A DNA stretch of 21,656 nucleotides, taken from IMG/VR virus record IMGVR_UViG_3300026094_000043, positions 1 to 21,656 of that record. One strand, 5' to 3'. Made by a program: the position numbers and the translations under genes. Shown here in pieces: positions 253 to 4,789 of this stretch. Numbering within the stretch: the first letter of the stretch is position 1; each line of letters begins with the position of its first letter. The notes below the pieces were generated by a model, which searched no databases, was not told the origin of the DNA, and was given only the letters and a program-made list of their open reading frames with translations. The DNA comes from a virus.

Positions 253-2235
253 TTACGGCGCAGGAGCGAACTGAGTATCCTTGGCGTTTCTGGGCGGACG
301 AGTCGGACCAGGAGCAGGTTTAACGACTGTCTGACTGTTGTTCGTTACATTCGTTGACGAGTTGTTCTGAACATTCAGTCCAGCACCAGCCGCCGGTGTT
401 TCTTCTTCAAGAGAACGTCTTTCTTCTGCGGCCATACTTAACTGTCCACTTGGTCGGCGATCCATACTTAGAGGCTCGACGCCAGTTTCACTGGTTTGTG
501 ATTCGTCATTGTTCGATCCTATAGAACTTGGCGGTGTTGACGATCTACCCAGAACATAGTTGACCTTTGCCACCTGTTCAGCAAGTTCATCAAGCTTGAG
601 CGACGGATCGAGTAGACCGGCACCGAAGTCTATCTTACCTCCACTAAAGAATCCTGCATCATATTCACCACCCTGTGATAGCTTTTGAATGAGAGGAATG
701 GAGCGACCAAGATTCTTTGCAAGTTTTTCAAAGTCTACGTCTCCGGCCGATACCTCGATGCTACTAAACTTACTTAGCGCGTCGCCAATCTTTTCGATTG
801 CATTGGCGCCCTTCATCAGTTTGTCAGAGTTATCCGCAACATCCATGATCTGATCGAACGGCGAGTCCGCACCAAAGAATCCTAATACCTTCTCACCGAC
901 GTTCGCCAACTGTCCTATTGCTTTTGATCCAGTGAAAGCAAGAAGACCAGCAGCTACTTTACTCATGCCGGCAGCAAATCGACCCGCCTTTGAATCCTCA
1001 CCGTCACCGTCAAGCATATCAGTAATCGACAAAAGATCGACAACATTCTGCTTTATCGTTTGTGTCCAGTCCGACTTACTGATTGTATCCGCGATGGCAG
1101 CGGCTGTCTTACCGATACCGAACGCAGCAAGACCGGTTCCGATACCAGTCATGATTGCTACGAACGTTCCGGTCTCTCCGAATGCGGCGAGCTTACCACC
1201 AAGCGCATCCTCGATAGAAAGCAGAGTAAGTACATTGTCCTTTATACTCTGAGCCCATGCCGGATCCTGAAAGTCAGCAATCGCTCCGCCGATACCAGCG
1301 ACTCCTGACCCTGCACCAAAGACTGCAAGACCGGAAGCAATTCCAGTCATAAGTAAGAAGAATGTACCACCCTCAAGGAGAGCGCCGCCCAGTCCATCGA
1401 CCGCATCAGATATTGATAACAGCGTAAGAACGTTGCTCTTTATCGATTCAGCAAAGTTCGGATTCATAAAACTGGTAAGTGCGTCCGCCAAACCGGCTGT
1501 CGCAGAGCCAACGCCAAAAGCGGCCAGACCAACACCAAGCCCAGTCATGGCAGCAACGAATGCACCTCCCTTGGCAAGCATACTAAGGTTACCGCCAACG
1601 GCATCAGGAATCGACAGAAGTACCTTTACATTGTCCTTGATCGTCTGAGCAAATTCACTGTCTTTTGTAAAGTAATTGACCGCGGCAGATACACCGGAAC
1701 CCAGAGCAAATGCAGCGAGTCCTGCACCCAGACCGGTCATTGCGACAAAGAATGTACCACCCTCAACAAAAAATGATCCGGTGCCTCCAACCTCATCAGG
1801 TATAGAAAGCAGCGTGAGAATGTTCTGCTTAAGGCCCTCGGCATCCATGTTAACGATCTGATCAAGAAGATAACCACCACCAGCAAAGAGAGCTCCAATA
1901 CCAGCTGCACCAATACCGAGTCCTGCACCAGCGAGTCCTAGACCTCCAAGCAGTCCACCACCGTCGTCTTCTTCTCCGGATCTACCAGCACCACCGGCAC
2001 CACCGGCACCGGTTTGGCCCTGCAGTGCAGCGAGCATCTGTTCATTCTGACGTTTTTGTTCACGACGATCCTCAAGAGAATCCGAATCGGAATCCATAAG
2101 GAATCCTAGAATGTCACCAAGACCGCCAGAGAGATCTTCAATGCCACCGCTGATCTCTTCTAGGATCTCGTTATTCGCATCCGTGATCTCGTTCAGAGTC
2201 TGTAACTGTTGAGTAACGTCTGAAATCTTATCCAT
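253..2235 (-). CDS. Putative tail tape measure protein with five internal repeats
   Basis: A 660-residue protein. Residues 1-75 are charged and probably coiled. A Gly-rich linker (76-95) and a hydrophobic Gly/Ala segment (94-125) follow. About five repeats of 62-66 residues occupy 134-460, each with an LLSI motif (142, 206, 272, 338, 401) and then a hydrophobic helix such as MTGLGAGLAAF (166, 230, 296, 362, 424). The tail is Asn-rich, then Pro-rich (NVQNNSSTNVTNN near 621). I read it as the tape measure because it is long, helical and hydrophobic, and lies directly downstream of the gp26/gp51-type pair. At about 0.15 nm per residue, 660 residues span about 99 nm, close to a T4-like tail. No sequence match to T4 gp29 is apparent to me, so the call rests on architecture and position. 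It could instead be another long structural protein. The start lies two bases after the upstream TAG, with no clear ribosome site, suggesting translational coupling. Confidence 0.6.
   Translation of the reverse strand: MDKISDVTQQLQTLNEITDANNEILEEISGGIEDLSGGLGDILGFLMDSDSDSLEDRREQKRQNEQMLAALQGQTGAGGAGGAGRSGEEDDGGGLLGGLGLAGAGLGIGAAGIGALFAGGGYLLDQIVNMDAEGLKQNILTLLSIPDEVGGTGSFFVEGGTFFVAMTGLGAGLAAFALGSGVSAAVNYFTKDSEFAQTIKDNVKVLLSIPDAVGGNLSMLAKGGAFVAAMTGLGVGLAAFGVGSATAGLADALTSFMNPNFAESIKSNVLTLLSISDAVDGLGGALLEGGTFFLLMTGIASGLAVFGAGSGVAGIGGAIADFQDPAWAQSIKDNVLTLLSIEDALGGKLAAFGETGTFVAIMTGIGTGLAAFGIGKTAAAIADTISKSDWTQTIKQNVVDLLSITDMLDGDGEDSKAGRFAAGMSKVAAGLLAFTGSKAIGQLANVGEKVLGFFGADSPFDQIMDVADNSDKLMKGANAIEKIGDALSKFSSIEVSAGDVDFEKLAKNLGRSIPLIQKLSQGGEYDAGFFSGGKIDFGAGLLDPSLKLDELAEQVAKVNYVLGRSSTPPSSIGSNNDESQTSETGVEPLSMDRRPSGQLSMAAEERRSLEEETPAAGAGLNVQNNSSTNVTNNSQTVVKPAPGPTRPPRNAKDTQFAPAP
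841..1836 (-). repeat. Five diverged ~195-bp repeats inside the putative tape measure gene
   Basis: Five consecutive units encode a shared pattern: IK.NV..LLSI.DA, a variable turn, then a hydrophobic MTG.G.GLAAF helix. LLSI spacing is 64, 66, 66 and 63 residues. The fifth unit is the most diverged (MSKVAAGLLAF). The units differ at the DNA level, so the duplication is old or under protein-level selection. Confidence 0.85.
1988..2015 (-). repeat. Short 9-bp tandem repeat encoding a Gly-Ala linker
   Basis: About three copies of a CACCACCGG-type unit (+ strand) encode the Gly/Ala linker around residues 75-84 of the 660-aa protein. Replication slippage here could change linker length. Confidence 0.6.
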
Positions 2236-2237
2236 GT

Positions 2238-2372
2238 CTACCGTGTGCCCTTATGTCGGAGCCTTTCGTTCTCCTGCTGAATGTGGTCCACAAGCATTGT
2301 GATGTAGACCTCCCTTTCCCACGGTATCATATCGTCAAGCTCAGTAAGACTATACTTGTGATGCTGCATCAT
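2238..2372 (-). CDS. Small gp51-like protein / downstream half of a frameshifted tail chaperone
   Basis: This frame encodes 44 residues from ATG 2372 to TAG at 2238-2240, beginning MMQHHKYSLTELDDMIPWER. The pattern looks like the short protein found after gp26 in T4-like phages and usually labelled gp51, baseplate hub assembly catalyst; I recall this from the family and have not searched it. The frame is open upstream to 2432 and reads sensibly there (HDNLVNHFKTNFS precedes the first Met). A GTG at 2399 is another possible start. Neither start has a ribosome site, and the ATG falls inside a predicted RNA structure. I therefore think the main product may be a -1 frameshift extension of the gp26-like gene. 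The stop lies two bases before the ATG of the putative tape measure gene. Confidence 0.7.
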   Translation of the reverse strand: MMQHHKYSLTELDDMIPWEREVYITMLVDHIQQENERLRHKGTR

Positions 2373-3130
2373 TGAAAAGTTAGTCTTAAAGTGATTCACA
2401 AGATTATCATGGGAAAGGGCTATCCGAAAAAATTAGCTAGACCTCGAAGCTCCGTGTTGTTTTGATGACCACAGTTGGTGCAGTTAAAAGAAACGTCCAG
2501 TACCGTTGCAGGAATGTTCTCAACGAACTTGCGTACACGAGCGAACTGCTCTGCATTTAGCGACTCGACAAATTCCGTAAGTTCTTGTCTTGATTGAGAC
2601 GATGCGTCAAAGATTTCCTCACCGGAGTAAATCGAATCTATACACTCGAGTAGTAGACCAAAGATCTTTTCAACATTGTTCGTGTTCTGATCAGTTCGCG
2701 AATCGAGAACAGAATTAACCGAGGGATACTTCATCTTAACACCAACGGTATCAGTCAGCTCAATTGTATCGGATACTTCTTCGTTACTTTTAACACGAAC
2801 ATCATTAAGATCGATCGCAACCTCGTTTGAGGTATCACACTCTTCGCACTTCATTGACACCTGCACAGTTTCGCCGACCGACTTTGATCGCAGCTGTGTA
2901 AAGATGTAGTCCATATCAAACATCGTGATGTGGCCGGTATCGACCTCATTGTTCGTACACGCAGAGATTACCTCTTTAATTGCACGAATCATTTGACGAT
3001 CATCGTTGGACTCCATGGCCAACATCAGAATCTTTTCTTCTTTTACAAGATAAGGACGATACGTCACCGTCTTATTTGTCGAAGGAATCGTCAGCTCATA
3101 GCTCGGTGCGTCTAGTTTAGGAAGACCCAT
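2238..3130 (-). CDS. Predicted -1 frameshift fusion of gp26-like and gp51-like frames
   Basis: If ribosomes slip back one base on T_TTT_TTC (2432-2426), translation passes from residue F235 of the gp26-like protein into the overlapping frame, reading RIALSHDNLVNHFKTNFS and then the 44-residue gp51-like sequence. The fusion would be about 297 residues. The layout (short form, longer frameshifted form, then tape measure gene) matches the lambda G/GT-H tail chaperone system. The heptamer, a spacer of six bases and a 12-bp downstream stem are visible in the sequence; actual frameshifting is inferred. Confidence 0.6.
2312..2432 (-). other. Programmed -1 ribosomal frameshift signal (slippery site and nested stems)
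   Basis: The slippery heptamer T_TTT_TTC at 2432-2426 is in the gp26 frame and two codons before its TAG. After a six-base spacer, CCCTTTCCCATG (2419-2408) can pair with CGTGGGAAAGGG (2323-2312): 12 bp with a single G-U pair. Its 84-base loop holds a perfect 8-bp stem (2388-2381 with 2352-2345), which encloses a perfect 5-bp stem with a three-base loop (2371-2367 with 2363-2359). Heptamer, spacer and stem order fit the standard -1 frameshift signal. The pairing was read by eye; no folding energy was computed. Confidence 0.7.
2420..3130 (-). CDS. 26: gp26-like baseplate hub subunit / candidate tail assembly chaperone
   Basis: A 236-residue protein resembling the T4 gp26 family of baseplate proteins; T4 gp26 is 208 residues. 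The N-terminal part, with VTYRPYLVKEEKILMLAME near residues 22-40, has the look of that family. Two CxxC pairs are visible, C95/C98 (KCEEC) and C217/C220 (NCTNC), and are likely to bind one zinc ion. The last residues are LANFFG. The FF codons form the slippery site described separately, so the short product ends here and a longer product would carry the gp51-like tail. GGAG lies seven bases before the ATG, and the gene starts two bases after the tail-tube-like gene. Hub membership is the traditional label; its place before a tape-measure-like gene suggests a chaperone role instead. Confidence 0.8.
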   Translation of the reverse strand: MGLPKLDAPSYELTIPSTNKTVTYRPYLVKEEKILMLAMESNDDRQMIRAIKEVISACTNNEVDTGHITMFDMDYIFTQLRSKSVGETVQVSMKCEECDTSNEVAIDLNDVRVKSNEEVSDTIELTDTVGVKMKYPSVNSVLDSRTDQNTNNVEKIFGLLLECIDSIYSGEEIFDASSQSRQELTEFVESLNAEQFARVRKFVENIPATVLDVSFNCTNCGHQNNTELRGLANFFG

Positions 3131-4345: not shown

Positions 4346-4789
4346 CTATTTAAGAATTTTGATACCAAGGGACTTGAGTGTATCTTCGGTCCAAACTTCA
4401 AACGTCCAACCGCGATCGAGAGCGAATTCCGATGCGGCCTTCCACTTCGATTGATTCTTTACGTAGGTGAGAGACTCCTTGACATATCGACGCGTCTTGC
4501 GTTTCGGTGTCTTGGGTGGTTGAGTCTGTCCCTTGGGCTTTATCTCTATGATGTAGTTCTTACCCTCTTGAGTCTGAAACCAAAGATCCATAAAGTACCG
4601 ATGTACCTTCTTATCGGTCTCACACACATACGGAATCACGAGTTCCTCGCTGTTCCAATGTACGATCGAGCTCTGAGTGTCTATCCACCGAAAGGTATTA
4701 CGCTCCCACAAAGAACGATACACGATGTTCTTCACATCACCGACGTACTTCTCGGGATGCTTTGGTGTGAATTTACCACGGTAAGCCAT
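4346..4789 (-). CDS. 4: gp4-like head completion protein (nuclease fold)
   Basis: A 147-residue protein that matches the T4 gp4 (gp50) head completion family in length (T4 gp4 is about 150 aa) and sequence pattern. A nuclease-like core can be seen: E29 in YRSLWER, D68 in HRYFMDLW, and E82-x-K84 in IIEIKPK, which together fit the TnsA-like PD-(D/E)xK arrangement. The C-terminal half is basic (KTPKRKTRRY), suitable for DNA contact. In T4 this protein acts after DNA packaging to make heads ready for tail joining. The ATG lies within the divergent control region and has no ribosome site ahead of it. A 113-base gap with its own late promoter separates it from the next gene. Confidence 0.85.
   Translation of the reverse strand: MAYRGKFTPKHPEKYVGDVKNIVYRSLWERNTFRWIDTQSSIVHWNSEELVIPYVCETDKKVHRYFMDLWFQTQEGKNYIIEIKPKGQTQPPKTPKRKTRRYVKESLTYVKNQSKWKAASEFALDRGWTFEVWTEDTLKSLGIKILK

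Follow-up and report, generated by a model that had tools for sequence, protein, structure and literature searches.

A tail assembly chaperone that, like lambda G/GT, comes in two forms, the longer made by -1 ribosomal frameshifting, is very probably encoded on the minus strand of the 21,656-nt viral DNA stretch analyzed here (IMG/VR record IMGVR_UViG_3300026094_000043, positions 1 to 21,656; hereafter the window), the slippage and its rate being inferred from the sequence. An earlier note had pointed to a frameshift signal joining gp26-like and gp51-like frames of a T4-like phage at this locus, and that observation is confirmed. The gp26-like gene (2420-3130, minus strand), which encodes the 236-aa short form, ends in AAT TTT TTC GGA TAG, and direct reading places the slippery heptamer T_TTT_TTC in frame near its 3' end at 2432-2426, with the stop codon TAG at 2422-2420, inside the 6-nt spacer GGATAG (2425-2420). 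The heptamer is in frame as had been claimed, though its position "two codons before" the stop was only loosely right, a single sense codon (GGA) lying between. The -1 frame extension (2426-2238, minus strand) stays open for 62 codons past the slip to a stop at 2240-2238, and the predicted fusion of 235 and 62 residues has the 297 aa that the note had estimated. An SD-like GAGGT (2445-2441, minus strand) lies 8 nt upstream of the heptamer and may act as a stimulator, its computed duplex with the 16S tail reaching -6.6 kcal/mol. Over 129 unique junctions, picked by heptamer presence so that the heptamer count among them is descriptive only, 16S-tail pairing upstream of the heptamer averaged -6.66 kcal/mol, compared with -5.04 kcal/mol for synonymous replacements.

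Both parts of the locus are homologous to the T4 gp26/gp51 family (PF12322, phrog_150, phrog_634). The gp26-like protein matches PF12322 (T4_baseplate; E 5.5e-66) and phrog_150 (baseplate hub; E 1.4e-68), and PF12322 has one match in the 21.7-kb fragment. The extension, a gp51-like T domain, matches phrog_634 (baseplate hub assembly catalyst; E 2e-26), in keeping with the note's account of an open -1 frame that reads into gp51-like sequence as far as 2238. It also matches positions 235-276 of phrog_150, and some phrog_150 members are therefore already fused. The genes upstream encode a tail tube protein (phrog_45, directly adjoining), a DNA end protector and a head closure protein. Directly 3' of the chaperone locus lies a gene for a Gly/Ala-rich, 660-aa protein with a 66-aa repeat period (253-2235, minus strand), for which no family match was found, so that it is only by inference a candidate tape measure protein, a plausible but unproven assignment. 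The head closure (gp4-like) protein of the window (4346-4789) has a further match to PF08722 (E 2e-18), the family of TnsA-like endonuclease N-terminal domains.

The AlphaFold model of the short form of gp26 has a pLDDT of 89, and a second structural comparison returned 3fgx (Z 7.6) and YqbN (3klu; Z 6.8), both tail assembly chaperones, together with HK97 gp13 (2ob9; Z 7.4), ahead of a next match at 4.8; these matches are confined to residues 1-94, and Z-scores below 8 can reflect a common arrangement. The PDB title of 2ob9 names HK97 gp13 as a tail assembly chaperone. Foldseek alone gave a weak match (2ob9 at E 0.13), and a PDB sequence search with gp26 and T4 gp51 returned no matches. The resemblance of the modeled N-terminal domain to solved tail assembly chaperones is thus supportive but not conclusive, and this chaperone-like part is followed in gp26 by further domains, a feature that sets the protein apart from lambda G.

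At the junction between the two frames, an in-frame T_TTT_TT(T/C) is present in 83/83 relatives of a first set (80 viral contigs and three phage records), or 84/84 rows with the window included, and in every complete junction of that set the open -1 frame extends ∼55-69 codons beyond the stop of gp26. In a second set, for which cyanophage S-ShM2 served as the seed, 78 of 78 usable cyanophage-type loci carry the heptamer, as do two KVP40/nt-1-type loci, one rhizobial locus and one Menderavirus locus. It is likewise found in the phage records nt-1, phiM19, RL2RES, RHph_Y68, Yut3, S-CRM01, BUCT-ZZ01, Mosig, ACG-2014d, pf16 and Milchi, and the groups that bear it include Emdodecavirus, Pootjesviridae and Menderavirus in addition to Stenotrophomonas and Pseudomonas T4-like phages. 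Across all groups looked at it takes the form T_TTT_TT(T/C/G), in frame. As a control, T_TTT_TT(T/C) encodes just 3 of 79 other Phe-Phe dipeptides of the same genes, and the residue preceding the two Phe codons is variable (N, S, D, A or T). The stop begins 7, 10, 13, 16 and up to 31 nt past the heptamer start among relatives, while the heptamer-to-stem distance in the window's clade is constant at 6 nt as the stop shifts. Relatives lacking the heptamer or an open -1 frame, which the earlier note had named as the counter-evidence to seek, were confined to a few side groups; the canonical heptamer is absent from T4 itself and AB1I1P, from Ackermannviridae and from Vibrio K474/VPALA. In Pelagibacter phage Mosig (L202, 2797-3528) a distance of 31 nt separates the heptamer from the gp26 stop downstream of it, and gp26 and the -1 frame overlap more than in other relatives. 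A Menderavirus contig (L200) carries a one-T deletion within the slippery run around position 2240, likely a homopolymer sequencing error; the contig was considered as a natural gene fusion and rejected, as the deletion leads into the wrong frame.

RNA polymerase can slip on T runs, and a transcriptional origin of the shift, through gain or loss of a U in the transcript, would draw on the six T of the window and the at least seven of some relatives. This explanation is very improbable, given that the register is always the in-frame X_XXY_YYZ, that many relatives have six T only, and that the 6-nt stem spacing and the SD-like enrichment fit ribosomes.

In the window's clade, variation among 66 unique sequences indicates that the -1 frame is already coding ahead of its first ATG. 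Over the stretch examined a -1 stop occurs in none of the 66, and the other two frames meet a stop within ∼20 codons in 65 and 62 of them. No member has an ATG before codon 13 of the -1 frame, the first mostly falling at codon 17-18, and codon-position entropy upstream of that first ATG (0.58/0.39/1.20) shows coding-like variation. An earlier GTG or TTG exists in some members, the window included (codon 7-8 in 15/66), and lies within the conserved stretch. The lack of an early ATG combined with coding constraint ahead of the first one implies that in this clade the -1 frame upstream of the first ATG must be translated by entry from gp26. These data bear on the possibility that gp51 is a separate protein, initiated internally or by termination-reinitiation past the gp26 stop, with the poly-T incidental. 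Such an arrangement would suit nt-1, RL2RES, Yut3 and phiM19, where an ATG overlaps the stop (TAATG/TGATG), S-ShM2-type cyanophages, where an ATG follows the stop by a few bases, and public records, which give gp51 its own CDS or omit it. For the window it is nevertheless highly unlikely, as a gp51 begun at the first -1 ATG would miss the conserved upstream stretch, and the heptamer is retained even where the stop is 31 nt away (Mosig). A mixed outcome, compatible with frameshifting in the window, has rather better prospects, though it is still on the doubtful side: every phage with the heptamer would make the fusion, and the TAATG/TGATG lineages would in addition make a free T peptide by stop-start coupling. 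The heptamer and an overlapping ATG do co-occur in nt-1, RL2RES, RHph_Y68, Yut3 and phiM19 (L087, L089, L090, L091 and L093), but the ATG may be a relic and the window has none. A separate T peptide is accordingly possible in relatives with an ATG at the stop, a feature that the window's clade does not have.

Downstream of the heptamer, the 12-bp stem that the note had placed 6 nt on, with its partner 84 bases further, holds up in full. Its 5' arm, CCCTTTCCCATG (2419-2408, minus strand), starts directly after the GGATAG spacer and pairs along all 12 bp, one of them G-U, with the 3' arm CGTGGGAAAGGG (2323-2312) across an 84-nt loop. A 141-nt region, folded as the note had proposed, reached -40.7 kcal/mol; dinucleotide shuffles gave -27.6 kcal/mol (z -3.5), and only one in 200 of them did equally well. 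The nested stems of 8 bp (TAAGACTA/TAGTCTTA, 2388-2381/2352-2345, minus strand) and 5 bp (TGATG/CATCA, 2371-2367/2363-2359, minus strand) that it had also described are present in the window but are not conserved among relatives. RNAalifold consensus folds of 25 and 49 sequences contain the outer stem only, and the inner 8-bp stem is paired in 68.5% of cells vs. 67.3% in shuffles, so the inner stems were rejected as conserved elements and are probably incidental and specific to the window. An Rfam scan returned no match.

Conserved residues are encoded by both arms of the outer stem (ALSH and PWERE codons), which raises the question of whether the pairing is a by-product of protein constraint, with the heptamer alone driving the shift; several pairs are invariant, and cyanophages carry the heptamer without such a stem. 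Codon-preserving shuffles, in which synonymous codons are permuted within the -1 frame and both protein and codon content are kept, speak against this in the clade. For the window alone the energy z is -2.15, and its 12 pairs, set against a mean of 10.3, are equalled by 17% of shuffles. The 25 closest sequences pair better than their shuffles, with a mean energy z of -2.7 and a mean z of +2.0 for the number of stem positions paired, values that fall to -2.5 and +1.3 in the wider clade and to -1.5 and +0.2 in the remaining sequences. In a set of 49 sequences, selected for intact stems, 92% of outer-stem cells are paired vs. at most 69% in slid registers, and covariation exceeds that of all 500 shuffles and of any slid register. 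The two arms are in register, third codon position facing third codon position, so synonymous changes can compensate, and pairs are indeed kept by double synonymous changes: position 11-110 goes from T-A to C-G between the sister groups L040/L067 and L039-L047/L046-L074, and T-A stands at pair 8-113 in the clade of L039 and in L082. In L055, pair 7-114 has become G-C through a protein change. In a tree-aware simulation, no single pair covaries significantly, the two best pairs having P of about 0.36 and 0.44. Over all 66 clade sequences, pairing fails at 7-114, 8-113, 11-110, 14-107 and 17-104 in some branches of the tree, and only 7-9 of the 12 pairs are retained by one subclade (e.g., L035, L042, L048). 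A by-product of protein constraint is therefore an unlikely account of the stem, and the comparative case for its selection in the window's clade is good but not conclusive, with its strength lying in the clade and not in the window alone.

Under the frameshift reading, the majority of ribosomes would end gp26 at the TAG and release the 236-aa short form. On a fraction of the ribosomes that reach T_TTT_TTC, where the 12-bp hairpin follows 6 nt downstream and the SD-like GAGGT may assist from upstream, both Phe tRNAs would slip back one base. These ribosomes would bypass the stop and append 62 codons, and their product would be the long form (G+T) of 297 aa. If lambda is a guide, the short form would coat the tape measure protein, probably the product of the next gene, the T domain of the long form would recruit tail tube subunits, and both forms would be absent from the virion. 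In T4, the same long form would come from the separate, duplicated and fused gene 51.

The alignments of the T4 proteins are consistent with such a role for gene 51. T4 gp26 aligns to phrog_150 positions 14-235 only, T4 gp51 aligns to positions 13-280 of the same family and, at its C-terminus, to phrog_634, and the two are homologous to each other. T4 gp26 is the homolog of the short form and T4 gp51 is, by alignment, colinear with the predicted 297-aa fusion of gp26 and T; unlike the window, T4 has two separate, divergent genes and no frameshift. A fused gp26+T protein in T4, together with the predicted gp26 fold, supports the lambda G/GT analogy drawn in the note. Among 16 phages, T4 alone has two PF12322 genes and each of the other 15 has one, with the T domain located beside it by profile search in 13 of these 15. 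A "hypothetical protein" of Acinetobacter phage AB1I1P (L095, 1625-2380) resembles a fused long chaperone of the T4 gp51 type, divergent from gp26, and this phage appears to have the T4 arrangement.

In a gp26/gp51 tree built with FastTree, in which long branches make the groupings tentative, the T4-type short and long genes cluster (support 0.83), and the heptamer-less Ackermannviridae/Vibrio group lies beside heptamer-bearing lineages (support 0.945). Together these placements tentatively suggest that frameshifting is ancestral and that T4 gene 51 is a frozen duplicate. The fuller scenario for the T4 superfamily has roughly even chances of being correct: -1 frameshifting would be both ancestral and the commonest route to the long chaperone, gene 51 would be a duplicate that froze the frameshift product, the Ackermannviridae-like clade would have lost the canonical heptamer in favor of another route (either an ATG or AUU start that overlaps the stop, or a shift of non-canonical type), and the window's marine clade would have evolved the third-position-paired stem. 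In Ackermannviridae (L086, 3311-3470; L094; L181-L198), gp26 is followed by an unannotated -1 ORF of ∼50 codons with a T-like domain (phrog_9633; weakly phrog_634), and no canonical heptamer was found at these loci. A -1-frame codon overlaps the stop there as TAATT in most cases and as TAATG in L195-L197, which suggests that the T domain is begun by an AUU/AUG restart or reached by an unusual shift.

Many tailed phages make the long form of the tail chaperone by the same -1 slip. Lambda G/G-T shares with the window the short and (in the window, predicted) -1-extended forms, a slip site just before the stop, and a location between the tail tube gene and the (in the window, candidate) tape measure gene, but it uses another heptamer, and the strong 12-bp downstream hairpin is a feature of the window. 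The P2 E/E' and Mu tail chaperones also combine a -1 frameshift with a poly-T type site and a contractile tail, although their proteins are probably unrelated or very distant; Christie (2002) and Xu (2004) are cited for these frameshifts. Escherichia coli dnaX resembles the window in its SD-like motif, heptamer and downstream hairpin, and differs in being a cellular gene with the heptamer A_AAA_AAG. Closer in kind is the chaperone locus of Vandenendeviridae and Andersonviridae, a myovirus gene annotated as two for which there is comparative evidence of a -1 frameshift, albeit with a GTTTTT motif and in other phage families (PMC12846349). G-T frameshifting has been described as widely conserved "except T4" (Atkins et al., 2016). 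In the passage of the PRFect paper that cites Vladimirov, Gautam and Davidson (2022), some T4-like phages are said to have a short gene and a fused long gene instead of frameshifting (PMC10885494). The identification of T4 gp26 and gp51 as tail assembly chaperones is credited to Vladimirov et al. (2022) in the relevant lines of PMC10885494 and PMC12846349, and poly-T shift sites in T4-like phages are credited to the same work where later papers mention it. From this literature, the kind of system is known and, going by these secondhand accounts, its occurrence in T4 relatives probably is as well. No described gp26-gp51 frameshift in cyanophages or pelagiphages was found in the open-access papers searched, which does not show it to be undescribed. 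What the present analysis adds is the marine clade with its RNA stem, and the range of phages over which the heptamer is conserved.

In most of the public phage records examined, the two halves are given as separate "hub subunit" and "hub assembly catalyst" genes, or the second half is omitted. If the two halves were read as a single frameshifted chaperone, annotations would be corrected in hundreds of genomes of cyanophages, pelagiphages, Vibrio phages and rhizobial phages. Such a reading would also point to the tape measure gene in phages that have none assigned, and would tie the long-puzzling gp51 of T4 to the frameshift product of its relatives. In Synechococcus phage ACG-2014d (L203, 1508-1694), the T domain is unannotated and falls in the space that the record leaves empty after gp26, before the gene that follows.
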